Source of the DNA: Palleronia caenipelagi
Lineage (GTDB): Bacteria > Pseudomonadota > Alphaproteobacteria > Rhodobacterales > Rhodobacteraceae
Assembly: GCF_007004065.1 (NCBI RefSeq)
Contig: NZ_VFSV01000032.1
Span: 1 to 34,773 of the forward strand
Length of the DNA stretch: 34,773 bases
Direction of reading: 5' to 3'
The notes beneath the pieces are model-generated. The model saw only the letters and a program-made list of their open reading frames with translations. It did no database searches and was not told where the DNA came from. The first letter of the stretch is position 1. The number at the start of each line of letters is the position of its first letter. Positions 20,711-34,482 of this stretch are shown here, one piece after another. The position numbers and the translations under genes are program-made.

Positions 20711-21514
20711 GGCACCGTAAAGTTAAGGCGGTGATCGGTGAGATATGCGATCTGGCAGCATGACCAGGACCGACCTCCATCGCCGCCATCGATTCCCGCC
20801 GGACGTGATCGCTTAGGCAGTTTGGCTGTACTTCAAGTTTCCGCTGAGTTTGCGAATGGTTGATGACCTGCTGGCGGCGCGCGGGATCATCGTGTCGCAC
20901 CAGACTGTGCGGGCCTGGGCGGAGAAATTCGGTCGGCAGTACGCCAGAAAGATCCGCGAACGGTCAACCGGGCAGATGGGCGACAAGTGGCACCTTGATG
21001 AAGTTGTGGTTAAGATCCGGGGCAGGAAACACTGGCTCTGGCGCGCCGTAGATCAGGAAGGTTTCGTCCTTGATGTCCTCGTCCAGAGCCGCCGGGACAA
21101 GAAGGCCGCCAAGCGTCTTCTCCGCAAGCTTCTGAAAAGGCACGGCGTTCCCCGTGTCATGATCACCGACAAGCTGCGGTCCTATCCGGCGGCGAAGAAG
21201 GAGATCGCGCCGGGTGTCGAGCATCGATCCCACAAAGGCATTAACAATCGTGGCGAAAACTCTCACCAACCGGTGCGACGAAGGGAGCGGATCATGAAGG
21301 GCTTCAAATCTGCGGCGCACCTACAACGCTTCGTCTCGATCCACGACCCGATTGCCAATCTGTTCCAGTTGCCCCGCCATGAAATGACCTCCGAAGAATT
21401 CCGCGATCTCCGTAAAACTGCAATGGACCATTGGTGGTCCATCGCAGACATCGAGGTCGCTTGATCAAACGGCCAACCTTCAACTCAACTAAACCAAGTT
21501 AACTTTACGGTGCC
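20711..21514 (+). mobile_element. IS6-family insertion sequence (804 bp)
   Basis: Perfect terminal inverted repeats GGCACCGTAAAGTTAA (20711-20726) and its reverse complement (21499-21514) bound one transposase frame. The match extends two more bases outward (CC/GG). Length and single-gene layout are typical of IS6. The eight bases outside each end differ (AGCTGGCC and GGTTCAAC), so no target duplication is visible. That agrees with replicative transposition and later recombination between copies, a usual IS6 behaviour that also joins and deletes flanking DNA. Confidence 0.87.
20760..21464 (+). pseudogene. IS6-family transposase, interrupted by an in-frame TAG
   Basis: From ATG 20760 the frame reads MTRTDLHRRHRFPPDVIA, then TAG (20814-20816), then AVWLYFKFPLSLRMVDDLLAARGI, which is the standard IS6 N-terminal HTH. 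A CAG-to-TAG change would explain the stop. The DDE core is present: HLDEVVVKI, MITDKLRSY and a Glu in RRRERIMKGFKS, followed by the usual C-terminus. Internal initiation at 20850 or 20856 would miss part of the DNA-binding region, so this copy is probably immobile by itself. Confidence 0.83.
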
Positions 21515-21697: not shown

Positions 21698-21931
21698 CGT
21701 GACCGGCTAAACACCCTCGGGTGCGTCTGCAAGTTGGCAATCCCTTTGGGACAGCTTTGGGGATCTGAACAACGGATGGATTCTGGTCCATCGTAGCCAT
21801 TAAGGAGCGAAGATGAACCAGAAACCTACCACATTACTTGCTGTGTGATATGCCCCATCTGGCGCGGTGTCTCACCTGCCAACCTTCTGCTGCCGCGTTA
21901 ATATCTCCGATAACAGGTACGTTCATACGGA
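21698..21931. other. Non-coding junction with a possible 11-codon ORF
   Basis: No recognisable gene. A strong Shine-Dalgarno (AAGGAG, 21802-21807) precedes ATG 21813, but the frame stops after MNQKPTTLLAV (TGA 21846-21848). It may be the severed 5' end of an older gene or a leader peptide. The promoter of the glycosyltransferase gene at 21932 should lie here, but none was obvious. Confidence 0.3.
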
Positions 21932-22909
21932 ATGGATTCGGAGATGACAGCCAGTATTGCTTTCTTTGCATCGGCTCGTTCAGGGCTCGGCCATTTGCAG
22001 CGCATCGGGAATATCGGTGCTGCGCTGCGAGCCTGTGGTTATGATGGTCATCTCAGCTTGCTTTGTAACGCCGAGGCAGACGCTGTCGATCTGATGACCT
22101 TCGACCGCGTTATCGTGACGCCCCGGGAACAGATGTCGAAAGTAGCGGGAGAGAGCGGCACAACCCTTGCGGTGTCGGACATGATGATTGTTCCCGGGAT
22201 CAAACATGTCGGCAAGCATCGTGTTTTGATACTCCGCGAGACGCCAGCGGAGCGGCTTCATCGGTTCTTTGGCGGTGAGAGTTGCTGGAATCATGTGCTT
22301 GTTCCCAATCCATCCGACCACTGGAGGCCACCAGTTGACTTGATGCCTCCCGAACGCGTTCACCCTGTCGGGTGGATTGCGCGACGGAACTGTCCACGCC
22401 AGAGAAATGATGAACGGATCGGCGTCCTGCTCGCCACCGGCGGCGGCGGAACTGCGGAGACCCGCGCGTCATTGTACCCAATGCTGTCGCAGATTCTGAG
22501 ACTGGCGCGTGGCCGGACCCGGTTTTTGGTGCATCAGGCTGTTGGTCCGCGCGCTCGGGGGGAGGTGCTCGACGAGGCGGACGCGCTTCTGGACCCGGGA
22601 TCGCGCTTGGACCTTCTGTTTCGCAGAGCAGACGTGGTCATTTCCACTGCGGGCTACAACTCTGTTCTGGAGCTGGCGGGGACTGACACCCCCACTCTGC
22701 TGGTCGCGATTCCAAGGAGTTACGATGATCAGCAGGCCCGTGTGCGCCAATGGGGCCCACGTCTCGGCCACGGGGTGGAACCCGGAGAAGAGCAGGCGGC
22801 CGCGAACTGGCTGGCAGAGCACGTCGCCCGTCCAAAGCGTCGCTCACCGGTGGATCTGGGCCCCGATGGAAGCGTCGCGGCGGCCAAAATTCTCTGCAGG
22901 CTCGCATGA
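21932..22909 (+). CDS. MurG-like (GT28/GT-B) glycosyltransferase
   Basis: A 325-residue GT-B-type protein. The N-terminal FASARSGLGHLQRIGNIGAAL corresponds to the glycine-rich acceptor loop of MurG-like enzymes. The C-terminal half has GVLLATGGGG and then VVISTAGYNSVLELAGTDTPTLLVAIPRSYDDQQARV, the sugar-nucleotide binding site (the TAGYNS-E pattern matches TGYNS-E in the fusion protein at 26414-27970). The start may be ATG 21932 or ATG 21944; neither has a strong ribosome-binding site. Its stop overlaps the phosphotransferase-fold gene (ATGA), so the two form a unit. The donor and acceptor are unknown. It is probably a specialised paralogue of the fused enzyme. Confidence 0.75.
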   Translation: MDSEMTASIAFFASARSGLGHLQRIGNIGAALRACGYDGHLSLLCNAEADAVDLMTFDRVIVTPREQMSKVAGESGTTLAVSDMMIVPGIKHVGKHRVLILRETPAERLHRFFGGESCWNHVLVPNPSDHWRPPVDLMPPERVHPVGWIARRNCPRQRNDERIGVLLATGGGGTAETRASLYPMLSQILRLARGRTRFLVHQAVGPRARGEVLDEADALLDPGSRLDLLFRRADVVISTAGYNSVLELAGTDTPTLLVAIPRSYDDQQARVRQWGPRLGHGVEPGEEQAAANWLAEHVARPKRRSPVDLGPDGSVAAAKILCRLA

Positions 22910-23634
22910 CGGACTTCGTCAAGCACTTTGCGGACGCATTTACGGCGAAACAGATCGCTTCGCGCAGCATGTCTCTGCGGGCACAGGGCTTGATCACTCC
23001 CGCTGCCCGACCGGATGGTTGCGCGGTCAGGTTCGACCGGATCGATGGGAAATCAGGCCTTTGCCTGAGTCGGATAGATCCGATCCGATGGCTTCGGCCT
23101 TTGAGCGCATTGCACCGTTGCACGCTTCCGGGACTGTGCCGGCTTGATCCCCAGCTCCGCATTCGGCCCCGTCTCCATCACCTGACCTCCCAAGACATCG
23201 CCGAAGCTTTACACGCGCTGGGTCGCCTACCGACCAAGGGCAATGCGCTGTTACACGGTGATATGCATCTGGGACAGATGATTGACGCGTCGGATGGGAC
23301 GGTCTGGCTGATTGATCTGGACGATCTTTGTCTCGGACCTGCCGAGGCAGATCTGGGCAATCTGATCGCCAATCTGGCCACGCAGGCGCAGCTGGGAGAC
23401 AGTTTTGCCAAACGCCTCGCATTCTGGCGCCGCGAGGTTGAGGCGGCCTGGGCGAAACTGGTGGAACCGGTCTGCCCGGACATCCTCGAGCGCTACATCG
23501 CGCTTGCCCTGATCCGGCGGCATCTGAAATTCCGCGAGGCCGGTCGTCCCGATTATGAGGCCGAGATCGTCGCCTGGATCAATCCCGTTGCAGCTCGAAT
23601 TTCTCCATCCGGTAGCGCAGGGTATCCCGGGTGA
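22906..23634 (+). CDS. Small phosphotransferase-fold protein (APH/choline-kinase type), mostly C-lobe
   Basis: At 242 residues it is shorter than typical aminoglycoside-phosphotransferase-fold kinases (280-400). The catalytic loop LLHGDMHLGQMI (H about 117, catalytic D about 119) and the metal-binding LIDLDDLCLGPAEADLGNL (D about 137) are intact. The N-terminal lobe (ATP-binding strands) is short or degenerate. It is translationally coupled to the preceding glycosyltransferase. Its last 56 bases overlap the convergent regulator gene. Such enzymes phosphorylate small hydroxylated or amino compounds, including sugars; here a saccharide intermediate is inferred. Two longer relatives lie at 32094-34482. 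Confidence 0.72.
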   Translation: MTDFVKHFADAFTAKQIASRSMSLRAQGLITPAARPDGCAVRFDRIDGKSGLCLSRIDPIRWLRPLSALHRCTLPGLCRLDPQLRIRPRLHHLTSQDIAEALHALGRLPTKGNALLHGDMHLGQMIDASDGTVWLIDLDDLCLGPAEADLGNLIANLATQAQLGDSFAKRLAFWRREVEAAWAKLVEPVCPDILERYIALALIRRHLKFREAGRPDYEAEIVAWINPVAARISPSGSAGYPG

Positions 23635-24811
23635 TGCCGAGCATTTCGGCTGCTCGGGAGACATTACCGCCGGTCTGTGCCAGAGCTTTGCGGATGGCTC
23701 CCAGTTCAAGCTCCCTGAGCGTCGGCACCGGATCAGTGGCTGGATCAATTGTTGCCGAAAATGGCCGGATATGCGTAGCTTCGATCGTGTCCGCTTCACG
23801 CATGAGCATCGCGCGCTGGATACAGTTGACCAGCTCCGCAACATTCCCCGGCCAGTCATATTCAAGCAATTTCGCCCGCGCTCCCGAAGACCAGCGGGGG
23901 CGGGACTGGCCGGCCGCGCGGGCCAGTTGACGAGCGACAAAATCGGCGATCGGAAGGATATCCGCGGTTCGCTCCGAGAGGGCCGGGACATCGATCCACC
24001 CCACCTGAAGCCGAAACAAGAGATCCGGGAGGAAATCATTACTGCTAAGATGCGCGTTGGCCGTGGCGATCAGGGCGGGCGCAGCCGCTGATCTGTCGAG
24101 CAGGCGCAGCAGACTGGCCTGCGCCACCCGTTCGAGCTGACACACATTGCACAACAGGAGCGTTCCACTCTCTGCCGCGCGCACAGCTTCGGTCAGGCTC
24201 GCGGTGGCATTCTCGTCAAGCAACGTGCAATCGACGCGCACCTGCGTGCCACTCAGTGGGGTGCTTTCGTGTAGTGCCGTGGCGATCAGCTCTTTGCCAC
24301 TGCCCGGCGGGCCGACAATCAGCACACCGGGGCGCGGTTCGCCCGATAAGACGGCGGTGGCGAGCTGCTTCACATGTTTCCGCAGCGCATTTGCGGCCGA
24401 TGAGCGTCCAATAATCCGACCCACGCCTACCGGATCCAGCCCGGCGCCCATGTCATCCAGCATCAGGTCTGAGGCAAGTGCCGCAATTGAGGCGAGAGAG
24501 GCGGGTTTGGTCAGAAAATCACGTGCACCGGCTTTCATCGCCTGTACGGCCACCGAGACATCCCCATGGCCCGTCATCATCACAATCTGAACCCGGTCAT
24601 CCCGCTGTTGCATCCAGCGCAGCAACTCCAGCCCGTCATCCGTGTTCAGCTTGTAGTCGAGGATCACCATGCGCGGAATCTGTTCCTCAAACATGGCACG
24701 GGCCGAGGATGCATCGACCGCAAACCGCGCTGGAAAGCCACGTCGCTCCAGAAAGGCGACGATAGACCGTGCCAACACCGTTTCGTCTTCGACAACCAGA
24801 ATATCACTCAT
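23579..24811 (-). CDS. NtrC-like response regulator with degenerate AAA+ domain
   Basis: The 410-residue protein has three domains. The receiver (1-120) carries acidic residues E8/D9, phosphorylatable D52, T80 and K102. The AAA+ domain (about 130-340) keeps Walker A GPPGSGKE (167-174) and the sensor-like DLLFRLQV. It lacks the GAFTGA loop: only about 20 residues separate VDCTLLDE from the next motif. Walker B reads GTLLLCNVCQL instead of the usual GTLFLDE. The Fis-type HTH is at the end (ALAQTGGNVSRAAEMLGITRDTLRYRM). GAFTGA contacts sigma-54, so this protein probably does not activate sigma-54 promoters. NtrC of Rhodobacter capsulatus also lacks that loop and works with the housekeeping polymerase. 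It is cotranscribed with the histidine kinase 24 bases upstream. Confidence 0.88.
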   Translation of the reverse strand: MSDILVVEDETVLARSIVAFLERRGFPARFAVDASSARAMFEEQIPRMVILDYKLNTDDGLELLRWMQQRDDRVQIVMMTGHGDVSVAVQAMKAGARDFLTKPASLASIAALASDLMLDDMGAGLDPVGVGRIIGRSSAANALRKHVKQLATAVLSGEPRPGVLIVGPPGSGKELIATALHESTPLSGTQVRVDCTLLDENATASLTEAVRAAESGTLLLCNVCQLERVAQASLLRLLDRSAAAPALIATANAHLSSNDFLPDLLFRLQVGWIDVPALSERTADILPIADFVARQLARAAGQSRPRWSSGARAKLLEYDWPGNVAELVNCIQRAMLMREADTIEATHIRPFSATIDPATDPVPTLRELELGAIRKALAQTGGNVSRAAEMLGITRDTLRYRMEKFELQRD

Positions 24812-24835: not shown

Positions 24836-26212
24836 TTACGCCCTTGCTGGTAAAGTAAGAACCGCTTCGACGCCACGCTCACGTCCGTTGCGCAGATCGA
24901 GCGATCCGCCCAGCCTTTCCGCGATCCGCCGACCCAGCGCCAGCCCGACCCCCAGTCCTGACGCTTTCGAGGTCTGGAAGGGCGTGAAGATCTGGTCAAG
25001 TTGCGCTTCGCTCAGGCCCGGGCCGCTATCGGCCACGGTCACTGCGATCCTGCCTCCCGGAGCCGGGGCCCACCCCACGTGGATGGTCCCCCCCTCCACC
25101 ATGGCTTCGACGGCATTTGAAAGGATCGTGCTCAGCACCTGTTCAATTTCCGCAGCGCCCCCCTGAGCAACCGAGCTGCTCTCGTTTCGTTCGACGACGA
25201 CAGAAATGCCGCGCCTGCGAAATTGCGACTCGAAATTGCGTAGACACTTTTCGATGATGAGACTGATATGCGCGCTATCTCCGGCCCCAGCCGGGTCGCT
25301 GCGGGTGCGCAGGAGAAACGAGCGGATCCACGTTTCGAGCCGGTCGACCTGATCAATGATATCGTGGACACTCTCCCGACTGTGATCGGGCAGGTCATCC
25401 TCGGCCATGAGTTCTGCGCAAGACCGGACCGCGGCCAGCGGATTGCGGAGGCCATGAGCCACGGCCGATGCCATCTCACCCACGACCGCCAGCCGTTCGG
25501 TCTCCACCAGCCGGGCTTCCTGACGCCGCAGGATGCGCGCAGAATACAGGACAACCATGAACAGTCCGAAAAACAGAACGCCCCCGGCGACGATTGCGCC
25601 CAGGCGCGCGAGATTGATCACCCGGTGGATTGATGCGAGCAGGCTGGCCGGGGCCTTATAGACTTCGATAGCCCCGACAACGGCGGATTGGTCGGCTGAC
25701 CAGATCGGGATATAATACTCGATATACTCCGCCACGCCTTCCGGCATAGCAACGTGGTGTTCTTCCTTAAGGTGGTCTTCAATCGTGCCAATTTCTGGAT
25801 GAAGCTCGCCCTGCATTGCGGCATCAAGCTCGGCATTGTCGGTAAATACGCGCCCAACCAGTTCCTTGTCTGTTGACCAAAGAACCCGGCCATCATGGGC
25901 GTAGACGTTCGCCCGAAAGATATCAGGCATATGCGACACATGGGCGATGAGCTCCTTCGAACCGGGTTGCTCGTTGTCGTCAGGAGGGTCTTTGAGGAAG
26001 TAGCCTGTGGAATTCTCGACCTGAACGATGGCGTTGAGAAAATCCATGGAGACCTGCGCTTCGCGCATCAACATCTGGCGGGTCATGAAGTTCGCCAGGG
26101 ACGTCGAGAGGATTGCGGTAGTCGTAAAAATCGCGATCAGGCTCGATACGACGAAGATCGCCAAAACCCTGCCGTAGTGAGGAGATTCGCGGAGTGAAAG
26201 GGGGCCAGACAT
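24836..26212 (-). CDS. Membrane histidine kinase with periplasmic sensor domain
   Basis: The 458-residue sensor has membrane helices at about 16-38 and 204-225, enclosing an extracytoplasmic domain of about 165 residues that resembles a single-Cache sensor (YAHDGRVLWSTDKELVG; EYYIPIWSADQSAVVGAIEVY). The cytoplasmic part has the H-box GEMASAVAHGLRNPLAAV (H253), N-box LSTILSNAVEAM, G1 VADSGPGLSE and G2 SGLGVGLALGRRIAERLGG. ATG 26212 is preferred because the first membrane helix follows at once; the frame remains open upstream through the GC-rich operator region without coding character. It should phosphorylate the NtrC-like regulator encoded next. The second receiver, fused to the glycosyltransferase on the opposite strand, is a natural extra target (inference). 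Confidence 0.9.
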   Translation of the reverse strand: MSGPLSLRESPHYGRVLAIFVVSSLIAIFTTTAILSTSLANFMTRQMLMREAQVSMDFLNAIVQVENSTGYFLKDPPDDNEQPGSKELIAHVSHMPDIFRANVYAHDGRVLWSTDKELVGRVFTDNAELDAAMQGELHPEIGTIEDHLKEEHHVAMPEGVAEYIEYYIPIWSADQSAVVGAIEVYKAPASLLASIHRVINLARLGAIVAGGVLFFGLFMVVLYSARILRRQEARLVETERLAVVGEMASAVAHGLRNPLAAVRSCAELMAEDDLPDHSRESVHDIIDQVDRLETWIRSFLLRTRSDPAGAGDSAHISLIIEKCLRNFESQFRRRGISVVVERNESSSVAQGGAAEIEQVLSTILSNAVEAMVEGGTIHVGWAPAPGGRIAVTVADSGPGLSEAQLDQIFTPFQTSKASGLGVGLALGRRIAERLGGSLDLRNGRERGVEAVLTLPARA

Positions 26213-26413
26213 ATCGCTCACTTCGATTGCGGGTCGCGTGTTGCGCGTCTGACAGAGCGTACCTGGTGACAGAGGCCCCGACAATCCGGGCGGGATCCCC
26301 GAGGCTGGGGGATATCCCCCAAATTGTCTGGGGGACAGGCCCCAATCCAACCCTTGCGGTCCATCGCCCACCTTCGGCTACCGTGGCAAAAATCCCGCCA
26401 GAAGGGATAAACC
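26213..26413. promoter_or_regulatory. Divergent promoter region of the glycan locus
   Basis: This 200-bp stretch separates the kinase/regulator operon from the receiver-glycosyltransferase operon. It holds a GGGATCCC palindrome (26292-26299) and two larger dyads listed separately. No convincing sigma-54 -24/-12 motif was seen: a TGGCA at 26384 lacks the TTGC partner at the right distance. The plus-strand start has AAGGGA (26402-26407) six bases before ATG 26414. Confidence 0.55.
26306..26344. promoter_or_regulatory. Tandem 16-bp dyads, probable response-regulator sites
   Basis: TGGGGGATATCCCCCA (26306-26321) is a perfect palindrome. TGGGGGACAGGCCCCA (26329-26344) is a diverged copy with the same half-sites, displaced by 23 bp, about two helix turns, so both face the same side of the DNA. 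NtrC-family regulators bind paired dyads of this size. The NtrC-like protein encoded at 23579-24811 is the obvious candidate (inference). Confidence 0.62.
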
Positions 26414-27970
26414 ATGACTCGTGTTTTGTTGTGCGAAGATGAAGCTCTGCTGGCCCGGAATATCAGCCTTGCGCTCGCAAAGACCGGGGTTGAGGTGCGC
26501 CATGCGGGATCGGCCAGCGAGGCTCGTGCGGCGCTGAAATTACCTCACTGGGACCTCGTGATTGCCGATATTTCTCTCGGCAATGGCGACGGTATCGACC
26601 TCTTGTTTGAGGCCCGGGACCATTTGCGCGATACGCCAGTGATCATCATTACTGGCCAGGACAGCATCGCCAACCGGCTGCGCGCCGAGAGCATTGCGGC
26701 TGTGACCTTTCTGGCCAAACCCTTCGCCCTGTCGCGCCTTCGGGAACTGGTCGCCGCTTTCACCCGCGGGCAATCCGGCACCATGCAGCCCGCCCGCCAC
26801 GCTCCTTCGGTGGTGATGTATTCTCATGACACTCTGGGGCTGGGGCATATGCGCCGGAACTCCGCGATCGCCCGGTCATTGGTGGCGCGGATTCCCGGAG
26901 CATCGGTCCTGATGCTGGTGGGTTCCCCGGCGGGCATGGTATTCGAGAGTGCGCCCGGAATTGACTACGTAAAGCTGCCGTCTCTGGCGAAACTCGGGCG
27001 CGGGCTGTTCGGGGCTGGTAGCTTGCGCCTCGACAGCGACGCGATCCGTCGATTGCGCATGAGCGTGATTGACGGTGTGCTGAATAATCTACGCCCCGAC
27101 CTGCTTCTCGTAGACCACGAACCGGCCGGTGTCATGAACGAGCTTGAGCCCGCTCTGAGGCGTCTGCGTCTGGAGGGCCGGACCCGTACCGTTCTGGGCT
27201 TGCGCGACATCCTCGACGCCCCCGAACGCATTGCACGGAGCTGGCAGGAAAACGGAACGGCGAGGATTATTTCCGAGCTGTATGACGACGTACTAGTCTA
27301 TGGCGATCCAAGTTTCTTCGACACTGCCTCCGCCTACAACTTACCCCCCAGAACACGGTCTTGCGGCGTGGTGACGACGACACGCCGGACCTCCCCCAGA
27401 CCATTTGGCCGCCCGCCGCAGCGGGTTCTCGTGTCAGGTGGCGGCGGACGGGATGCCTATCCCCTGATCGATGCAGCGATCACGGCTATGGTCGAATTAC
27501 CGTCGGCGCAACGACCGGCCATGACCATCGTCACCGGGCCTCTGATGGATGAGGAGTTGCAAGCGGAAACACTGGCGCGCTCGGCGCCGCTCGGCATTCT
27601 GGTCCACACCCATGTCCCGGATCTCACCATCGAGATGGCGCGCTCGGATCTTTTGATCACCATGACCGGATATAACTCCATCAACGAAGCGATGGCACTC
27701 GGTTGCCCGATCGTCACTGTCCCCCGCCTCGGACCTTCTGCAGAGCAAAGCATTCGCGCCGAAAGGCTTGAGACACTGGGATTGGCGCGCGTCCTGCATC
27801 GCGAAGCCTTGTCTGGGCGAGCCCTCGCCAGGTTCCTGACCGGTGATCTCCCACCTCCGCCCGCCATGAAGCTGCGGTTGGATGGCGCCGAAACTGCCGC
27901 GAAAAAACTGCAAAAGCTCCTTGAACAGAGCCCTTTCCCCCGAGAGGTCGCCTATGTCGCCCAGCCCTGA
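26414..27970 (+). CDS. Receiver domain fused to MurG-like glycosyltransferase
   Basis: The 518-residue protein has two parts. Residues 1-120 are a CheY-type receiver with E8/D9, phosphoacceptor D52 (LVIADISLG), T80 (IIITGQD) and K102 (LAKPF); all key residues are present. After a short linker, residues 132-510 form a GT-B glycosyltransferase: VVMYSHDTLGLGHMRRNSAIARSL, LLLVDHEPAG, RVLVSGGGGRDAYPLI, and MTGYNSINEAMALGCPIVTVPR (about 417-438). There is no DNA-binding domain, so phosphorylation would act on the enzyme itself or on its partners. It starts the plus-strand operon next to the divergent histidine kinase. The frame is continuous with no sign of a fused-frame artefact. The sugar transferred is unknown. 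Confidence 0.88.
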   Translation: MTRVLLCEDEALLARNISLALAKTGVEVRHAGSASEARAALKLPHWDLVIADISLGNGDGIDLLFEARDHLRDTPVIIITGQDSIANRLRAESIAAVTFLAKPFALSRLRELVAAFTRGQSGTMQPARHAPSVVMYSHDTLGLGHMRRNSAIARSLVARIPGASVLMLVGSPAGMVFESAPGIDYVKLPSLAKLGRGLFGAGSLRLDSDAIRRLRMSVIDGVLNNLRPDLLLVDHEPAGVMNELEPALRRLRLEGRTRTVLGLRDILDAPERIARSWQENGTARIISELYDDVLVYGDPSFFDTASAYNLPPRTRSCGVVTTTRRTSPRPFGRPPQRVLVSGGGGRDAYPLIDAAITAMVELPSAQRPAMTIVTGPLMDEELQAETLARSAPLGILVHTHVPDLTIEMARSDLLITMTGYNSINEAMALGCPIVTVPRLGPSAEQSIRAERLETLGLARVLHREALSGRALARFLTGDLPPPPAMKLRLDGAETAAKKLQKLLEQSPFPREVAYVAQP

Positions 27971-29177
27971 CAGCCCGCGCATCGCCTATGTCCTGAAGCG
28001 TTTTCCGCGGTTTTCCGAGACCTTCATCCTGAATGAACTGCTCGCTCATCAGGCCACAGGGGCGGAGCTGCATGTCTTCTCGCTCCGCCAGCCGCCCGAA
28101 GAACCGCGCCACGAGCGGTTCTCAGAACTGAGGGCAGAGATCACATATCTTGATCAGCATAGGGGTGAAGGCGTCGCCGCAATCCCCGGTGATGATGTGC
28201 TGTTTTCCGGCAAGACAGAGCGGAGCGTAGAAAAACTCAGGGCGCAAGCCCGAGCGATTTCCGAAGCGGCGCAAGCGCTCGGGATCACGCATCTGCACGC
28301 CCATTTCGGGTCGGACGCAACCACTGCCGCTCTTTTAGCTGCACGCAAGATGGGTGGGACATTTTCATTCACCGCACACGCCCGGGATATCTGGCACACC
28401 TACGTCACCCCGGAAGCGGATGACGCCATGCGGCGTGCAAAGCTGGCCGCAGCAGCCTTTACTGTGACGGTGTCGGATTATAACGCCCGCCATCTGCGCA
28501 GCCTCTGCCCCGCAGCCGCCTCCCGGATCCTGAGGCTCTACAACGGCATCGACCTGCGCAGTTTTGCCCCAGTTCATCCGACGACACAGCGCCCCGGCAC
28601 GCTCATCGCGGTCGGTCGTCTGGTGGAGAAAAAGGGCTTTGCCGATCTGATCGAAGCCAGTGCCTTGTTGCGGGACCGGGATCCGAGTTTTGAACTGGAT
28701 ATCATCGGCGACGGTCCCTTGCAGGCGGAACTTCAACAACGGATCGACATGCATAAACTGAACAGCCAGGTCCGGCTTTGTGGTCCATTGCGGCAGGAAG
28801 ACCTGATCGAACGCATGTCGCGCGCGCAGGCGGCGGTGCTTCCTTGCGTGGTCACGCCCTCAGGCGACCGCGACGGATTGCCCACAGTTCTGCTCGAAGC
28901 CATGGCGCGCGGATTGCCCGTGATCACCACGGATATCGCAGGTGGACCCGAGATCGTGGAGGATGGCGTGACGGGGCTTCTGTGTCCTGCGAATGCGCCC
29001 GACCTGCTGGCCAGGGCGTTGGCGACGGTGCTCAGCGCTCCCCACCGCGCGATGGCTATGGGTGCTGCGGGTCGTCGGCGGGCCGAACTGCTCTTCGACC
29101 TGACGACCAATGCAGGCCGCCTGCGCGCCATGCTGGCCCACCCCCATGCTGCCAAAAGTCCTGAGGAGGTCGCCTGA
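27954..29177 (+). CDS. GT4-family glycosyltransferase
   Basis: This 407-residue GT-B enzyme of family GT4 begins RIAYVLKRFPRFSETFILNE, a start typical of colanic-acid/exopolysaccharide transferases. It contains LHAHFGSDATTAALLA, TAHARDIWH, LYNGIDLRSFAP, LIAVGRLVEKKGFADLIEA and the donor-binding SGDRDGLPTVLLEAMARGLPVI with the paired glutamates. ATG 27954 follows GAGAGG by six bases and overlaps the previous gene by 17 bases; upstream in-frame codons lie inside that gene. It is the second sugar-transferring enzyme of the operon. No membrane anchor is seen, so it is probably a cytoplasmic or peripheral membrane enzyme. Confidence 0.9.
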   Translation: MSPSPDSPRIAYVLKRFPRFSETFILNELLAHQATGAELHVFSLRQPPEEPRHERFSELRAEITYLDQHRGEGVAAIPGDDVLFSGKTERSVEKLRAQARAISEAAQALGITHLHAHFGSDATTAALLAARKMGGTFSFTAHARDIWHTYVTPEADDAMRRAKLAAAAFTVTVSDYNARHLRSLCPAAASRILRLYNGIDLRSFAPVHPTTQRPGTLIAVGRLVEKKGFADLIEASALLRDRDPSFELDIIGDGPLQAELQQRIDMHKLNSQVRLCGPLRQEDLIERMSRAQAAVLPCVVTPSGDRDGLPTVLLEAMARGLPVITTDIAGGPEIVEDGVTGLLCPANAPDLLARALATVLSAPHRAMAMGAAGRRRAELLFDLTTNAGRLRAMLAHPHAAKSPEEVA

Positions 29178-30337
29178 TGCGCATTGCATATGTATCGGCT
29201 GACCGGGGCATTCCGGTTTACGGGGCAAAGGGTGCCTCAATCCATATTCAGGCGATGATGCGCGCCTTCGAGGCGCTTGGACATGAGGTGCGGTGCATCA
29301 CCGCCCGGTCAGGCGGCGAGGGGCCATTCTCAGTTGAAACGGTATCCCCGTCTCAATCGGGCGCTGACCGTGAGGCTAAGGAACGCGCGGCCATGGCTCA
29401 GGCCGAGGCTATTGCTGAGCGGCTGGAAACGCTGCATTCGGACTGGTCTTTCGACTTGATTTATGAGCGCTACTCTTTGTGGTCCGCGGCTGGCGTCAGG
29501 GCAGGCGCACGGTTGGGCGTGCCTGTGGCGGTCGAGGTCAACGCACCGCTGATCGACGAGCAGCGCGCCTTTCGAGAGCTGATCTGCGAAGCGGAGGCCC
29601 GGGCTCTGGAGAGCGAGGTTTTACGGGGCGCCAGCCTGCTGGCCGCCGTTTCGGAACAGGTCGCGACATGGCTCCGCCAGCAAGGCGCGGGAGCCGACCG
29701 AGTGCAGGTGATCGGCAATGCGGTGGACACACGCGCGTTCCACCCGGGCATCGAGCCCAATGCGTCGGTGCCAGACGGAGCTTTTTGCGTGGGCTTTACC
29801 GGGTCACTGAAACGGTGGCACGGTGTGGACACGCTCCTGACCGCGTTCCGGGCGTTGCGCGCGGACGTGCCCGAGGCTCACCTGCTCGTCGTTGGCGACG
29901 GCCCGAAACGCGGTTGGGTCGAAGGTTTCGTCGCCGGGGCAGAGTTACAGGACAGCGTGACGCTTACGGGCTGGGTCGATCACCACGATCTCCCTCCGCT
30001 GATTGCGCGGATGGACATTGCAACGGCACCCTACCCGGCATCCGAAGATCACTATTTTTCCCCGCTGAAGCTCTATGAGTATCTGGCCATGGGGCGCCCC
30101 GTGGTGGCGAGCGATATTGGCCAGACCTCCGCGCTCCTACAGGGCTCGGACGCAGCACAACTTCTGCCTCCGGGAGGTGCAGAGGCCCTGGCCCGTTGCC
30201 TGCGGGAGCTGGCCAAGAGCGCCGGGGTTCGCGCCCGAATGGCTGCGGCCAGTGCTGCCGAAGGTCGTCGTCACGATTGGATCGACAATGCCCGGGCTGT
30301 CCTCGACCATGTCGCAGCGCGGAGGTCGGCGGCATGA
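29177..30337 (+). CDS. GT4-family glycosyltransferase
   Basis: At 386 residues, this enzyme begins MRIAYVSADRGIPVYGAKGASIHIQ, an acceptor loop common in GT4 enzymes. It has NAVDTRAFHP, VGFTGSLKRWHGVDTLL, LLVVGDGPKRGW and the donor-site YFSPLKLYEYLAMGRPVVASDIG. The SPLKLYEYLAMG form (Lys and Glu) is the usual EX7E-like site of this subgroup. Start ATG overlaps the preceding stop (TGATG) and the end overlaps the ABC transporter start (ATGA). The two GT4 enzymes differ strongly from one another, so at least two different linkages are probably made. Confidence 0.9.
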   Translation: MRIAYVSADRGIPVYGAKGASIHIQAMMRAFEALGHEVRCITARSGGEGPFSVETVSPSQSGADREAKERAAMAQAEAIAERLETLHSDWSFDLIYERYSLWSAAGVRAGARLGVPVAVEVNAPLIDEQRAFRELICEAEARALESEVLRGASLLAAVSEQVATWLRQQGAGADRVQVIGNAVDTRAFHPGIEPNASVPDGAFCVGFTGSLKRWHGVDTLLTAFRALRADVPEAHLLVVGDGPKRGWVEGFVAGAELQDSVTLTGWVDHHDLPPLIARMDIATAPYPASEDHYFSPLKLYEYLAMGRPVVASDIGQTSALLQGSDAAQLLPPGGAEALARCLRELAKSAGVRARMAAASAAEGRRHDWIDNARAVLDHVAARRSAA

Positions 30338-32097
30338 GCCGGGACCGGGTCAATCCGAAAACCCTGCGCCGGTTGTTCCGCCGCATGGGTCCGCATCTTC
30401 GTCCCTGGCGTGGACAGCTCATACTTGCTGGACTAGCGATGATTGGAGTGGCGCTCGCTGAGGTCGTCCGGCCATGGCCATTGAAGATCGTCTTTGACGG
30501 GTTGCTGATCCCGCAGGAAAATCCCGACGCAGTGACCGCATGGTTCGTGGGATTATTCGGCTCCGGGAATGGCTTGCTGGCCGCAGTTGCGATCGGCTTA
30601 TTGCTGATCGCGCTGATCGGGGGAGCTGCGGGGTTTGTTCAGGCCTATCTGATCGCCGCTGTGGGTCAGAAGGTCGTCGCCGCGATCCGGTTCGACCTGT
30701 ACCGCCACATCCACCGGCTGTCCCACAGCTTTCACGACACCGCATCCACCGGAGACATCATTGCACGACTGACAGGCGACGTGCGGATGATGCGGGATCT
30801 CCTGATTGATGCGATGGTGTTCTTTGCTGCGAGAATTCTGGTGATCGCGGTGACCATCGGTGTGATGCTGTGGATGGACTGGAGGCTGACGCTGGTGGCT
30901 CTGACCATCCTGCCGCCCCTGTGGTTACTGACGCGCCATTTTGGCACCCGGATCAAGGGAGCTGCACGCAAGCAACGGCGCAAGGAGGGCAAGATCGCAG
31001 TGGTCATGACCGAGGGCATCTCGGCGATCAGCGTCGTCAAGGGGTTTGCCCGTGAAGCCTATGAAGAGGAGCGGTTTGCCCGTCAAAACGGTGCCTCGGC
31101 CGAGGCTGGCGTGCGCACCACAAAGCTTGCCGCTCATATGGACCGGATATCTCAGGTATTGCTGGCCGCGGGGACGGCGATGGTCCTGTGGTACGGCGTC
31201 TACAGGGTTCAGGCGAACGCGATCAGTCCCGGCGATCTGCTGGTCTTCACAGCCTATCTATCGACGCTCTACAAGCCCGTTCGCAAGATGGCGTCAATGA
31301 CGGCGCGGGTCGCCAAGGCCAGCGCCAGTGGCGAACGTTTGTTGGAAATCTTCGACCTGAAGCCCGGTGTCGAGGATGCCCCGAATGCCCGCGTCGCCCC
31401 ACCGCTCGACGGTCTAGTGACCTTTCAGGACGTCCGCTTCGCATATAAGGAAAATGATCCGCCGGTTCTGCGGGACGCAAGCTTCACCATCCGTCCCGGT
31501 GAAATTGTCGCGCTGGTGGGGGGCAGTGGCGCGGGCAAATCCTCGGTCGCCAAGTTGTTGATGCGGTTTTATGATCCCAATGGCGGACAAATCTCCATCG
31601 ATGGATATGACATCCGGGAATTCACTCTGGATAGCCTCAGGAGCAACATCTCCGTGGTCTTGCAGGATGCGGTGCTGTTTGGAGCGAGCATTCGCGATAA
31701 TATCGCCTATGGCCGTCTCGGGGCATCTGACGAAGAGATCTTCGCAGCCGCCCGGGACGCCGGGGCCGACGGCTTTATCCGGGCCCTGCCACAAGGCTAT
31801 GATACCACCCTTGGTGAACGGGGCGAGACGCTCTCGGGCGGCCAGCGCCAGCGGCTGACGATTGCCCGGGCTATGCTGCGGGATGCGCCAATTCTCATCC
31901 TGGATGAGCCACTGACCGGTCTGGATCGTACCACGGCGCGGGCGCTGGTGGGTCACCTGCGGACCGCAGCCGAGGGACGGGCAACGCTGCTGATCGCACA
32001 TGATCCCTTGTCACTGGAACTGGCCGACCGGGTGCTTATGCTCGAGAATGGCAGCTTCACCAAACTGGACCCCAATCGGCTGGAGATACCCGCGTGA
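30334..32097 (+). CDS. ABC exporter, fused permease-ATPase half-transporter (MsbA/ABCB type)
   Basis: This 587-residue half-transporter has an N-terminal six-helix export domain (residues about 25-320; FHDTASTGDIIARLTGDVRMMRDLL is the typical intracellular loop). Its nucleotide-binding domain shows Walker A GGSGAGKSS (about 395-403), VLQDAVLFGASIRDNIAYG, signature LSGGQRQR (about 500-507), Walker B ILILDEPLTGLD and H-loop IAHDP. It should dimerise and flip or export an amphipathic product. The preceding glycosyltransferases and following kinases make a glycolipid, glycoside or polysaccharide intermediate the likely cargo. MsbA2-type exporters beside glycosyltransferases are known from rhizobia (from memory). 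The start overlaps the preceding stop. Confidence 0.92.
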   Translation: MSRDRVNPKTLRRLFRRMGPHLRPWRGQLILAGLAMIGVALAEVVRPWPLKIVFDGLLIPQENPDAVTAWFVGLFGSGNGLLAAVAIGLLLIALIGGAAGFVQAYLIAAVGQKVVAAIRFDLYRHIHRLSHSFHDTASTGDIIARLTGDVRMMRDLLIDAMVFFAARILVIAVTIGVMLWMDWRLTLVALTILPPLWLLTRHFGTRIKGAARKQRRKEGKIAVVMTEGISAISVVKGFAREAYEEERFARQNGASAEAGVRTTKLAAHMDRISQVLLAAGTAMVLWYGVYRVQANAISPGDLLVFTAYLSTLYKPVRKMASMTARVAKASASGERLLEIFDLKPGVEDAPNARVAPPLDGLVTFQDVRFAYKENDPPVLRDASFTIRPGEIVALVGGSGAGKSSVAKLLMRFYDPNGGQISIDGYDIREFTLDSLRSNISVVLQDAVLFGASIRDNIAYGRLGASDEEIFAAARDAGADGFIRALPQGYDTTLGERGETLSGGQRQRLTIARAMLRDAPILILDEPLTGLDRTTARALVGHLRTAAEGRATLLIAHDPLSLELADRVLMLENGSFTKLDPNRLEIPA

Positions 32098-33335
32098 AAC
32101 CGCAGGCCGTCGCCATCTCCGACGCTTTGGCCGCCTTGCCGGATCTGCTGCGACGCGGCCCGTCTCCTGATGCCCTGCGTTCTGTCACCGGGTCAAAGGC
32201 GCCCCCGATCCTGCAGCGGACCCTGTTCTCCGACCGCCGCCCGTTGCAGCTGGTCTACAGACAGGGGAACCAGACCGTGATTGCAGAATATCATGGCTCG
32301 GCAGCAGAGGCTGAGGCCGATGCGCTGCGAAGTAGTCTGGCTAAGAGCCGCCGTGGTCTCCGCGCGATGCTGGACGCAGGCGCGGTCGTCGCCGATCCGG
32401 AAACGGGACTGATCCTGCGACGGCCCGGTCTGGACGCGCGTTTACCGGGGTTGAGGTTGCTCCATGATACCGATGCCGCCCGTGCGCTCTTGACCCGGAT
32501 CGAAGGTTCCGATCCCGGTGCGGTTACGACGACGCTCATGGCCCATCGACTGGGCAAACGCGCAGTGATCCGGCTCACGCCCGCGACGGGTCCGACCCGC
32601 TATCTGCGCCTGCGCGCGGTCAAGAGCCGCACGGGTCAAACCGCCTTTGACCGGCATCGCGCGCTCTGGGCTGCGGCTCGGGGCTCCGCGGCGCTTATTC
32701 TGCCGGAGCCACTGGGCGAAGAGGCTGCACTGGGCGCCACGCTCTTTGCCGCATTGCCCGGTGCGCCGCCGGGCTTCGACGGCCCCGGAGCCGGGCAGAC
32801 CTGCCGGGCGATCGCCGAGGCCATTGCATCTCTGCAAGCTTTGCCGCTCACAGGCTTGCCGCATCATGACGGAGCCGCTGAGGCCCGGCTGCTCCGGGAC
32901 TGGTTCGGCAGGTTTCAGATTGTTTTCCCGGATGACGCCGCTGATTTGGCCCTTGCACTGCAGCAGGTGACAGATGCCCTCATGACGCACCAACCTGCGC
33001 CCGTACCCTGTCACCGCGATCTGCACGAAAAGCAGATCCTCATTGATGGCCCGCTGGCCGGGCTTCTGGATTTCGATACGGTCTGCCTTGGTGCACCTGC
33101 GATGGATCCGGGAAATCTGTTGGCACATCTCGCTCTGGCCGACATTCTCAAAGAATCCTCTGGCCACGCCGAGGCAACCATGGCCGCCGCGCTCACGGGC
33201 CCGGAGGATAGCTCTCTCAGGTTGTGGCGTCGCGCCGCTCTGTTGCGGCTTCGCATGATCTATGCTTTTACGGACATGGCGGCGGCCCATCTGAACGCTC
33301 TCCTCCAAGCCGCCAGCCTGCCCCATGATCAATGA
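32094..33335 (+). CDS. Phosphotransferase-fold protein (APH/choline-kinase type)
   Basis: The 413-residue protein starts at GTG 32094, overlapping the exporter stop by four bases. The C-terminal lobe has the catalytic loop VPCHRDLHEKQILI (H about 307, D about 309) and LLDFDTVCLGAPAMDPGNLLAHLAL (metal Asp about 325). This is the same layout as the small protein at 22906-23634. The N-terminal half (about 1-200) holds two segments that look like beta-rich kinase N-lobes (RPLQLVYRQGNQTVIAEY; RLGKRAVIRLTPATGPTRYLR). It may be a kinase for a sugar or amino-sugar intermediate. Substrate unknown. Its end overlaps the next gene by 11 bases. Confidence 0.78.
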   Translation: MKPQAVAISDALAALPDLLRRGPSPDALRSVTGSKAPPILQRTLFSDRRPLQLVYRQGNQTVIAEYHGSAAEAEADALRSSLAKSRRGLRAMLDAGAVVADPETGLILRRPGLDARLPGLRLLHDTDAARALLTRIEGSDPGAVTTTLMAHRLGKRAVIRLTPATGPTRYLRLRAVKSRTGQTAFDRHRALWAAARGSAALILPEPLGEEAALGATLFAALPGAPPGFDGPGAGQTCRAIAEAIASLQALPLTGLPHHDGAAEARLLRDWFGRFQIVFPDDAADLALALQQVTDALMTHQPAPVPCHRDLHEKQILIDGPLAGLLDFDTVCLGAPAMDPGNLLAHLALADILKESSGHAEATMAAALTGPEDSSLRLWRRAALLRLRMIYAFTDMAAAHLNALLQAASLPHDQ

Positions 33336-34482
33336 CCCCAACCTGCCTGCTCTCGGGGATCTCTCTGGCGATGCGCTGGAGCGCATGACCGGCCGAAAAG
33401 ACCTCCGCTTGCTGCGCCTGCGTTACCGCAAAGGCCAGCGCGCTATTCTTCATGTGGGCAGCCCCGAAGGCGAAGGCGTCGTTTGGTTGTTCGCGGGCGG
33501 CAAGGGTCGTCGTATCGCCCGGCGCAACCCGTCTGCTTATTTCGATCCGGAGAGTGGCGCAGTCTTTGAGGACTTTCCAAATGACCACCGATTGCCAGAG
33601 ATTGCCGCACTGATCCGCGAATGGCCTGAGGTCGCTCCCCAGTTGATCGGCGGTCCCGCCGTTGGAGGGTTGGACCTGCTCCGTTACCGCCCGGGCCTCT
33701 CTGCGACGCTCCGTTGCGTGCGAGCAGATGGTCGTGTGGCTTATGTCAAAGTGATCCGGGGCGAGGATGTCACCGCCATTGCCACCGCCAACCGGCGCCA
33801 GGTCGGCCAGTTGACCGGGACAAAGCTGGAGATCGCCCCCGTACTGGGCACCGCACCGGCTCTCAGAGCGATCGCGTTTGCCAGTGCAAAAGGGGTGCCG
33901 CTGGACCAGCTCCTGCGCGAGGCGAAGGGGTTGGCGCAACTCGGAACTGTGCTTGACAGGCTCGCGTCCCTGCAACGCCAGCCAGCTGTCAGCACACGGG
34001 TCAAAGATGCGACGCATCTCCACCAGACGGCACGGGAGGCTGCCGAGGTTATCTGCACAGTGTTTCCGGATCTCTCAGACCTCACCTTCCGTCTCCTCGC
34101 AAAGCTCGATACCTTGCCGCGACCCGAAGGAAGTACCCAGATCCATGGCGATATTAAACTTGAGCACATCTTCACTGACGGCGACCGTGTAACGCTCATC
34201 GATACCGAAACAATGGCGCTGGGTCCGGCTGATTACGATCCGGCGATGCTCTCGGGTCGTATTCGAATGGCCGAGGCAGAAGCCCGCATAGCCCCGCAAG
34301 TCGCAGCAAAAGCAAGGTCAAGAATTGCTCAGCGCGCCGGGCCGTGGTTCGAATGGTGTGCCGTCGTCGTTGGTCTGCGGCTGGCCCGCTATTATGCCCA
34401 GCATCCCGAAGCCAGATCTTTTGCCCGAGCGAGCGATCTTATGAGAAGAGAGGTGGTCGCGGGATTTCGGACCGGGTGCTAA
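33325..34482 (+). CDS. Phosphotransferase-fold protein (APH/choline-kinase type), last gene of operon
   Basis: The 385-residue protein has an N-lobe-like LRLRYRKGQRAILHVG and a second DLLRYRPGLSATLRCV that repeats the same pattern. The C-lobe has the catalytic loop STQIHGDIKLEHIFT (H about 274, D about 276) and LIDTETMALGPADYDPAML (metal D about 293). It is related to the preceding gene and overlaps it. The TAA stop (34480-34482) lies two bases before the apparent left end of the IS3 element, so the native 3' flank has been displaced. Length is normal, so the protein is probably nearly or fully complete. A few C-terminal residues (FRTGC) may have been altered by the insertion. Confidence 0.76.
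   Translation: MINDPNLPALGDLSGDALERMTGRKDLRLLRLRYRKGQRAILHVGSPEGEGVVWLFAGGKGRRIARRNPSAYFDPESGAVFEDFPNDHRLPEIAALIREWPEVAPQLIGGPAVGGLDLLRYRPGLSATLRCVRADGRVAYVKVIRGEDVTAIATANRRQVGQLTGTKLEIAPVLGTAPALRAIAFASAKGVPLDQLLREAKGLAQLGTVLDRLASLQRQPAVSTRVKDATHLHQTAREAAEVICTVFPDLSDLTFRLLAKLDTLPRPEGSTQIHGDIKLEHIFTDGDRVTLIDTETMALGPADYDPAMLSGRIRMAEAEARIAPQVAAKARSRIAQRAGPWFEWCAVVVGLRLARYYAQHPEARSFARASDLMRREVVAGFRTGC

Follow-up and report, generated by a model that had tools for sequence, protein, structure and literature searches.

Polysaccharide output in bacteria is usually linked to two-component systems via transcription or via c-di-GMP. A locus of Palleronia caenipelagi, in which a receiver domain and a glycosyltransferase share one frame, raises the question of whether a phosphorelay could also act directly on a glycan-assembly enzyme. 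If true, such control would provide a short path from sensor to surface glycan. The stretch of DNA analysed, here called the window, comprises 34,773 nucleotides. The feature proved to be real and conserved, and it is accompanied by a plausible cognate kinase and by a second receiver.

The fusion protein and its gene cluster

The features of the window are listed below with strand in brackets (a dot where none applies).

21932-22909 (+): GTa, second GT28-like glycosyltransferase; weak Glyco_tran_28_C match (E 1.2e-4), syntenic
22750-23634 (+): APHa, APH-type phosphotransferase (PF01636); start probably nearer 22906, as homologues align from about residue 40
23579-24811 (-): NtrC-like response regulator, in one operon with the kinase (Pfam, alignment)
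24836-26212 (-): sensor histidine kinase, divergent from REC-GT; HisKA 1.4e-12 and HATPase_c 7.3e-20 (Pfam)
26306-26321 (.): dyad TGGGGN6CCCCA, copy 1 (gap alignment, pattern scans)
26329-26344 (.): dyad TGGGGN6CCCCA, copy 2, 23 bp on (gap alignment, pattern scans)
26414-27970 (+): REC-GT, receiver and GT-B glycosyltransferase, 518 residues (continuous frame, Pfam, 8-row alignment)
26423-26752 (+): CheY-like receiver domain with E8/D9/D52/T80/K102 (Response_reg match)
26768-26806 (+): linker, about residues 119-131; pLDDT below 50 at 119-128, length variable in the alignment
26807-27928 (+): GT-B glycosyltransferase domain, about residues 132-505; Glyco_tran_28_C, Foldseek to GT1/GT28 including MurG
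27882-29177 (+): GT4a, GT4 glycosyltransferase (Pfam); start probably near 27954, as homologues align from residue 33-34
29177-30337 (+): GT4b, GT4 glycosyltransferase (Pfam, syntenic)
30334-32097 (+): MsbA-like ABC exporter (PF00664 and PF00005; MsbA_lipidA under cut-off)
32094-33335 (+): APHb, APH-type phosphotransferase (PF01636)
33325-34482 (+): APHc, APH-type phosphotransferase (PF01636)

The earlier note on this DNA, made from the letters alone, had read 26414-27970 as one frame joining a receiver to a MurG-like GT-B glycosyltransferase, and the frame is indeed continuous over its 518 residues. The domain search that it had suggested returned both expected families above their cut-offs, Response_reg at residues 4-113 (E 2.7e-20; 73 bits against 30.2) and Glyco_tran_28_C at residues 338-484 (E 2.1e-8; 34.8 bits against 22), while the third Pfam match, Glyco_trans_1_4, lies slightly under its cut-off. 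No DNA-binding family is among the Pfam matches of REC-GT, which agrees with the claim that a DNA-binding output is absent, and PF13641 (GT2) is likewise missing from these matches, a GT-B fold being present instead. The receiver residues E8, D9, D52, T80 and K102 were found where they had been placed and are conserved among the fusions: all eight aligned proteins have D9, D52 and K102, E8 is kept in the seven rows that cover it, and position 80 is T or S throughout (S in one). Judged by sequence, REC-GT thus has the acidic pocket, the phospho-accepting Asp, the Thr/Ser and the Lys of a receiver. It is the single full-length protein of its kind in its own genome, the 18 other matches being to the receiver alone or to part of the GT domain alone.

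The AlphaFold2 model of REC-GT (8-sequence input; mean pLDDT 79.4, pTM 0.78) has a receiver-like alternation up to helix 102-117, followed by a tether and a large alpha/beta enzyme part; the linker is predicted to be disordered (pLDDT below 50 at 119-128). In a Foldseek search of the PDB the top matches were GT-B enzymes of the GT1/GT28 kind, including OleD, UGT109A1, CalG1 and MurG, which share the fold and are listed without a receiver. For MurG (1f0k) the values were E 1.5e-10, target TM 0.63 and 18% identity. The MurG likeness proposed earlier therefore stands at the level of the fold, but a MurG function is not indicated. Among the 25 NCBIfam matches listed of 79, none was an equivalog above cut-off. 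H138, H145 and E425 of the GT domain are conserved in the eight aligned fused proteins, with presumptive roles as in MurG. Family profile and fold together identify REC-GT as a GT28/GT1-like GT-B glycosyltransferase with predicted activity.

The typical gene order is GTa, APHa, the NtrC-like regulator and the kinase on the opposite strand, REC-GT, GT4a, GT4b, the ABC exporter, APHb and often APHc. GT4a follows the fusion in the 10 records that reach so far, as two frames in the Tropicibacter alexandrii locus (L038). In genome G736 the order of exporter and APHb is reversed and the APHc match is weak. In locus L039 a nucleotidyl transferase (PF00483), which we take to be a GalU-type supplier of UDP-sugar, lies between kinase and fusion, and it has a DNA homologue in L040. 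By sequence and synteny, the kinase, the NtrC-like regulator and REC-GT form one conserved locus with glycan transferases, an exporter and APH-type kinases. The cluster contains three APH-type phosphotransferases, the substrate of which is perhaps a sugar or a lipid head group. An IS240-type DDE transposase frame (20850-21464; 204 residues, PF13610) separates the glycan cluster from a regulator gene, a possible sign of how the patchily distributed cluster moves.

Distribution and conservation of the fusion

A scan of contigs gave 10 loci, of which two had a receiver match only and eight had the fusion: Tropicibacter alexandrii, a Rhodobacteraceae MAG, Pseudaestuariivita atlantica, Silicimonas algicola, Defluviimonas, two alphaproteobacterial MAGs with identical scores, and a Marivita MAG (match to residue 310). 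Genome searches brought in three more fusions (G173, G035 and G736), making 12 fusion records with the window included. Nine are unbroken and of full length (the window, L039, L040, L041, L042, L043, L045, L065 and L217). The fusion of T. alexandrii (L038 8001-8060) has a stop at codon 8, the E8 codon of the other fused proteins, which is either a sequencing error or a real break; the Marivita frame stops near the end of its contig, and a 3.1-kb contig carries the G035 fragment split between two frames. The earlier note had called for a survey of homologues, with separate genes and a frameshift in the window as the finding that would speak against a fusion. The nine unbroken full-length frames rule out a frameshift or an assembly joint as its source.

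In samples of the family, class and phylum, which overlap one another, the fusion is rare. It occurs in 6 of 394 family genomes, the window's own and the G035 fragment counted in (threshold 1e-65; seven matches, one unfused), in 2 of 385 class genomes, namely that of the window and G736 of another alphaproteobacterial family (nine matches), and in 1 of 398 phylum genomes, that of the window (11 matches), the last two surveys being run at 1e-70, where very divergent fusions would escape. The distribution is patchy, with the fusion maintained in no fewer than two families.

The receiver is missing from most relatives. When 146 relatives were searched at 1e-40, 35 genomes matched, three with the fusion and 32 with matches starting at residue 108 or later; the stop-to-stop stretch upstream of the unfused match spans 14-121 residues (27 of the 32 loci read). 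In a plasmid search all of the 40 matches listed of 1013 start at residue 67 or later and hence lack a whole receiver. Unfused GT28-like transferases in alphaproteobacterial glycan clusters (among them L013, L034 and those on Ruegeria and Azospirillum plasmids) are 33-37% identical to the GT domain of REC-GT, and in six wider loci as well as in records of Ruegeria, Sulfitobacter and Azospirillum B510 they are likewise followed by a GT4 gene, but they have no receiver and the neighbourhoods examined do not contain the kinase of REC-GT. One of 13 congeners has a relative at 1e-40 (G012), and it is unfused; it heads a related GT4-GT4-ABC-APH run (L050 6287-16452). It was considered as a direct sister of REC-GT and set aside as a weaker comparison than that of genome G998 described below, as it adjoins an OmpR-type regulator and a different kinase.

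Over 28 pairs of fused proteins the mean identity is 0.65 for the receiver and 0.61 for the GT domain, the receiver being the higher in 20 of the pairs. The ratios of dN/dS (NG86), to be read with dS at about 1 or above in all pairs and infinite for the receivers of L043 and L040, are 0.08 for the receiver and 0.12 for the GT domain between L041 and L045, 0.06 and 0.08 between L039 and L040, and 0.22 and 0.13 between the window and L038. The first two are the closest pairs, with receiver values of 0.06-0.08.

A second receiver and the intergenic dyads

The kinase adjoins the fusion in all 12 records, and the NtrC-like gene is present, at least in part, in all of them. A membrane histidine kinase divergent from the fusion had been described in the earlier note; HisKA and HATPase_c on the minus strand at 24836-26212 bear out the kinase, while its membrane segments are judged by eye only. 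The view of kinase and fusion as the system was incomplete, however, since it missed two elements new to this analysis, namely the operon partner at 23579-24811, NtrC-like with a degenerate AAA+ domain, and the dyads in the kinase-fusion gap. The partner has the same order of receiver, AAA+ and Fis-type HTH as NtrC-type sigma-54 activators and keeps the HTH, but in contrast to them it has lost the GAFTGA loop and the acidic residues of Walker B. Both GAFTGA and the Walker B DE are absent from nine of nine aligned partners of fused loci, and by these motifs the protein would not be classed as a sigma-54-dependent NtrC activator. It matches the PEP_resp_reg and PgtA models along its length, both under cut-off.

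Helix alpha-1 of receivers is a main contact with kinases. It was compared in three genomes, not independent with respect to the cluster, with 30 receivers found in the own genome, 49 in G286 and 62 in G173 (141 altogether). In alpha-1 likeness to REC-GT, the NtrC-like partner ranks first of 29 in the own genome, first of 48 in G286 and second of 61 in G173. Identity between the two whole receivers is only 0.30-0.36; by this measure the partner ranks first in G286 and eighth in G173, and other receivers are closer in the own genome. The signature [LIM][AG][RK][NSA][IM] at the LARNI register, which is a description derived from the partners themselves and not a blind test, occurs only in the two partners (2/30, 2/49 and 2/62, the G286 scan covering the in-register pattern in the six frames of the loci). 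It also occurs out of register, in one more receiver of the own genome and one of G173. That the in-register signature is common only to the two partners among the 141 receivers is a new observation; together with the synteny it supports the proposed pairing of an enzyme-output response regulator with the adjoining kinase. In G736 alpha-1 of both partners reads LGR[NS]I.

In a tree of 48 receivers, the REC-GT group and the NtrC-like group are separate and REC-GT lies nearer to OmpR-like receivers, the backbone being weak (64/89) and the bootstrap not settled. This weakly resolved tree lends no support to the idea that the REC-GT receiver arose recently as a duplicate of the NtrC-like one next to it.

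The dyad TGGGGN6CCCCA is conserved in the kinase-fusion gap (seven loci aligned). With at most one mismatch it was found in the gap of all 11 loci scanned (the window, L038-L045, L065 and L217, L041 and L042 being near copies); an exact search of L049 found none. The window, L038 and L044 have pairs spaced 23 bp, and more dyads lie ahead of GTa in L038 and L043 and close to the GTa start in L065, while upstream of GTa in the window there is only a candidate with two mismatches (21842-21857). Allowing two mismatches, the window contains 28 copies against 30.5 in shuffles, so that the near-exact copies alone carry weight. The exact TGGGGN6CCCCAA occurs three times in the 4,020,978 bases of the own genome, twice in the kinase-fusion gap, and a control pattern was not found at all. 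The third copy (G000:C111:18777-18793, L096) is outside the cluster and possibly marks a further target gene. The NtrC-like regulator is the likely reader of the dyads. Scans of 26100-26500 for sigma-70 promoters and terminators found none.

At 1e-60, relatives of the kinase were found in three of 398 phylum genomes, the own genome, G998 and G1100. G998, labelled as of the same phylum and a different class, was likewise new to the analysis. Its locus L219 resembles that of the window by sequence: an NtrC-like regulator (34% identity over 4-407) and a kinase (37% over 20-454) are divergent from a glycosyltransferase with GT4 genes and an exporter after it, and the kinase-transferase gap contains the same dyad as an exact TGGGGCATTTGCCCCA. 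Unlike in the window, the transferase lacks a receiver and starts directly at the GT domain, and the regulator has GAFTDA and GTLFLDEI, both missing from the nine partners of fused loci. Alpha-1 of the NtrC-like partner is LAKNM in G998 and LARNI in G1100, the latter matching REC-GT. G1100 has a homologous kinase and NtrC-like regulator (L224 7922-10900), and relatives of the cluster transferases are absent within the 19.9 kb examined. The circuit of kinase, regulator and dyad may be older than the receiver of the transferase, or the receiver may have been lost in the G998 line, a single counterpart being indecisive.

Proposed dual output and its alternatives

On balance, and with somewhat better than even confidence, we read the locus as an envelope-glycan or glycolipid cluster with a dual-output two-component system, which would act on transcription and on a glycan-assembly enzyme. 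The neighbouring kinase would phosphorylate both receivers. The phosphorylated NtrC-like regulator would act at the TGGGGN6CCCCA dyads and set transcription of the cluster, while phosphorylation of D52 would alter the activity, oligomeric state or placement of REC-GT, the GT-B enzyme that would transfer a nucleotide-activated sugar in the assembly of an exported glycan. In this way a single signal would govern how much machinery is present and how active one of its enzymes is, and the cell may switch REC-GT directly as well as via the gene-regulating partner of the kinase. We favour dual output because the receiver chemistry is intact and strongly conserved, the kinase adjoins the fusion in 12/12 records, the alpha-1 ranks and the in-register signature tie both partners, a near-exact dyad lies in the gap of 11/11 loci and is rare in the own genome, and the enzyme part has a GT-B fold. 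Direct control of catalysis is, we infer, the leading reading.

Several observations count against dual output. The AlphaFold2 model gives no sign of a fixed receiver-GT interface, one G173 receiver has an alpha-1 closer to REC-GT than that of the partner, the tree does not place the two receivers as sisters, and there are the codon-8 stop of Tropicibacter and the frame change of G035. The unfused transferase of G998, in the same setting of kinase, regulator and dyad, also indicates that the receiver is dispensable for the pathway. More tentatively, and short of even odds, the arrangement could be a coherent feed-forward loop, in which one kinase serves two receivers with co-evolved kinase-contact helices, the regulator, having lost the sigma-54 engine, controls expression of the glycan-export cluster and the receiver gained by the transferase gates the enzyme post-translationally. 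If so, glycan assembly would respond to one signal on two time scales.

The receiver could instead be a phosphate sink or feedback device, REC-GT draining the kinase and tuning the NtrC-like regulator to the level of the machinery, with catalysis unregulated. A single kinase next to two receivers that share an alpha-1 signature would suit such a role, as would the predicted flexible linker without an evident interface. A sink, however, needs no enzyme fusion, yet the fusion has been kept in at least two families, and we regard this reading as unlikely. A role of the receiver in placement or dimerisation, whereby phosphorylation would take the transferase to the membrane kinase or another partner with turnover unchanged, is improbable; the kinase, judged membrane-bound by eye, and the fact that MurG-like enzymes act at the membrane are in favour of it. 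Signalling to REC-GT from some other cellular kinase, with the adjoining one serving only the NtrC-like regulator, appears quite improbable: the grouping with OmpR-like receivers on a weak backbone and the closer alpha-1 in G173 would fit it, but the synteny in 12/12 records and the in-register signature point the other way. A passive relic without present function, which the L038 stop and the G035 frame change might suggest, is very improbable given invariant catalytic residues, low receiver dN/dS and retention of the fusion in two families or more.

The earlier note had called the output type uncommon, and uncommon it is, but receivers joined to metabolic enzymes have been noted in bacteria as well as archaea (PMC5847659). 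The same paper describes receiver-GT2 response regulators, MTH_548 and relatives, in Methanobacteriaceae. Like REC-GT these join a receiver and a glycosyltransferase in one protein of narrow phyletic spread; by their description they are set apart as archaeal, with a BcsA-like GT2 (PF13641) and one or two receivers. Because receiver-enzyme fusions are already in print (PMC5847659), the receiver-GT-B fusion is a variant of a known sort. Other enzymatic output domains were, by its own account, set aside in PMC1183210. No report of a bacterial receiver-GT-B fusion was recognised in the literature searched, a partial coverage with the earlier response-regulator censuses outside it.

With homologous kinases and the same dyad next to both fused and unfused enzymes, the family offers a natural comparison for the gain of a receiver by an enzyme. 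A further arrangement is seen in G390 (L218 7078-15595), where regulator and kinase lie on the same strand immediately before the GT frame, which spans 571 residues from stop to stop.
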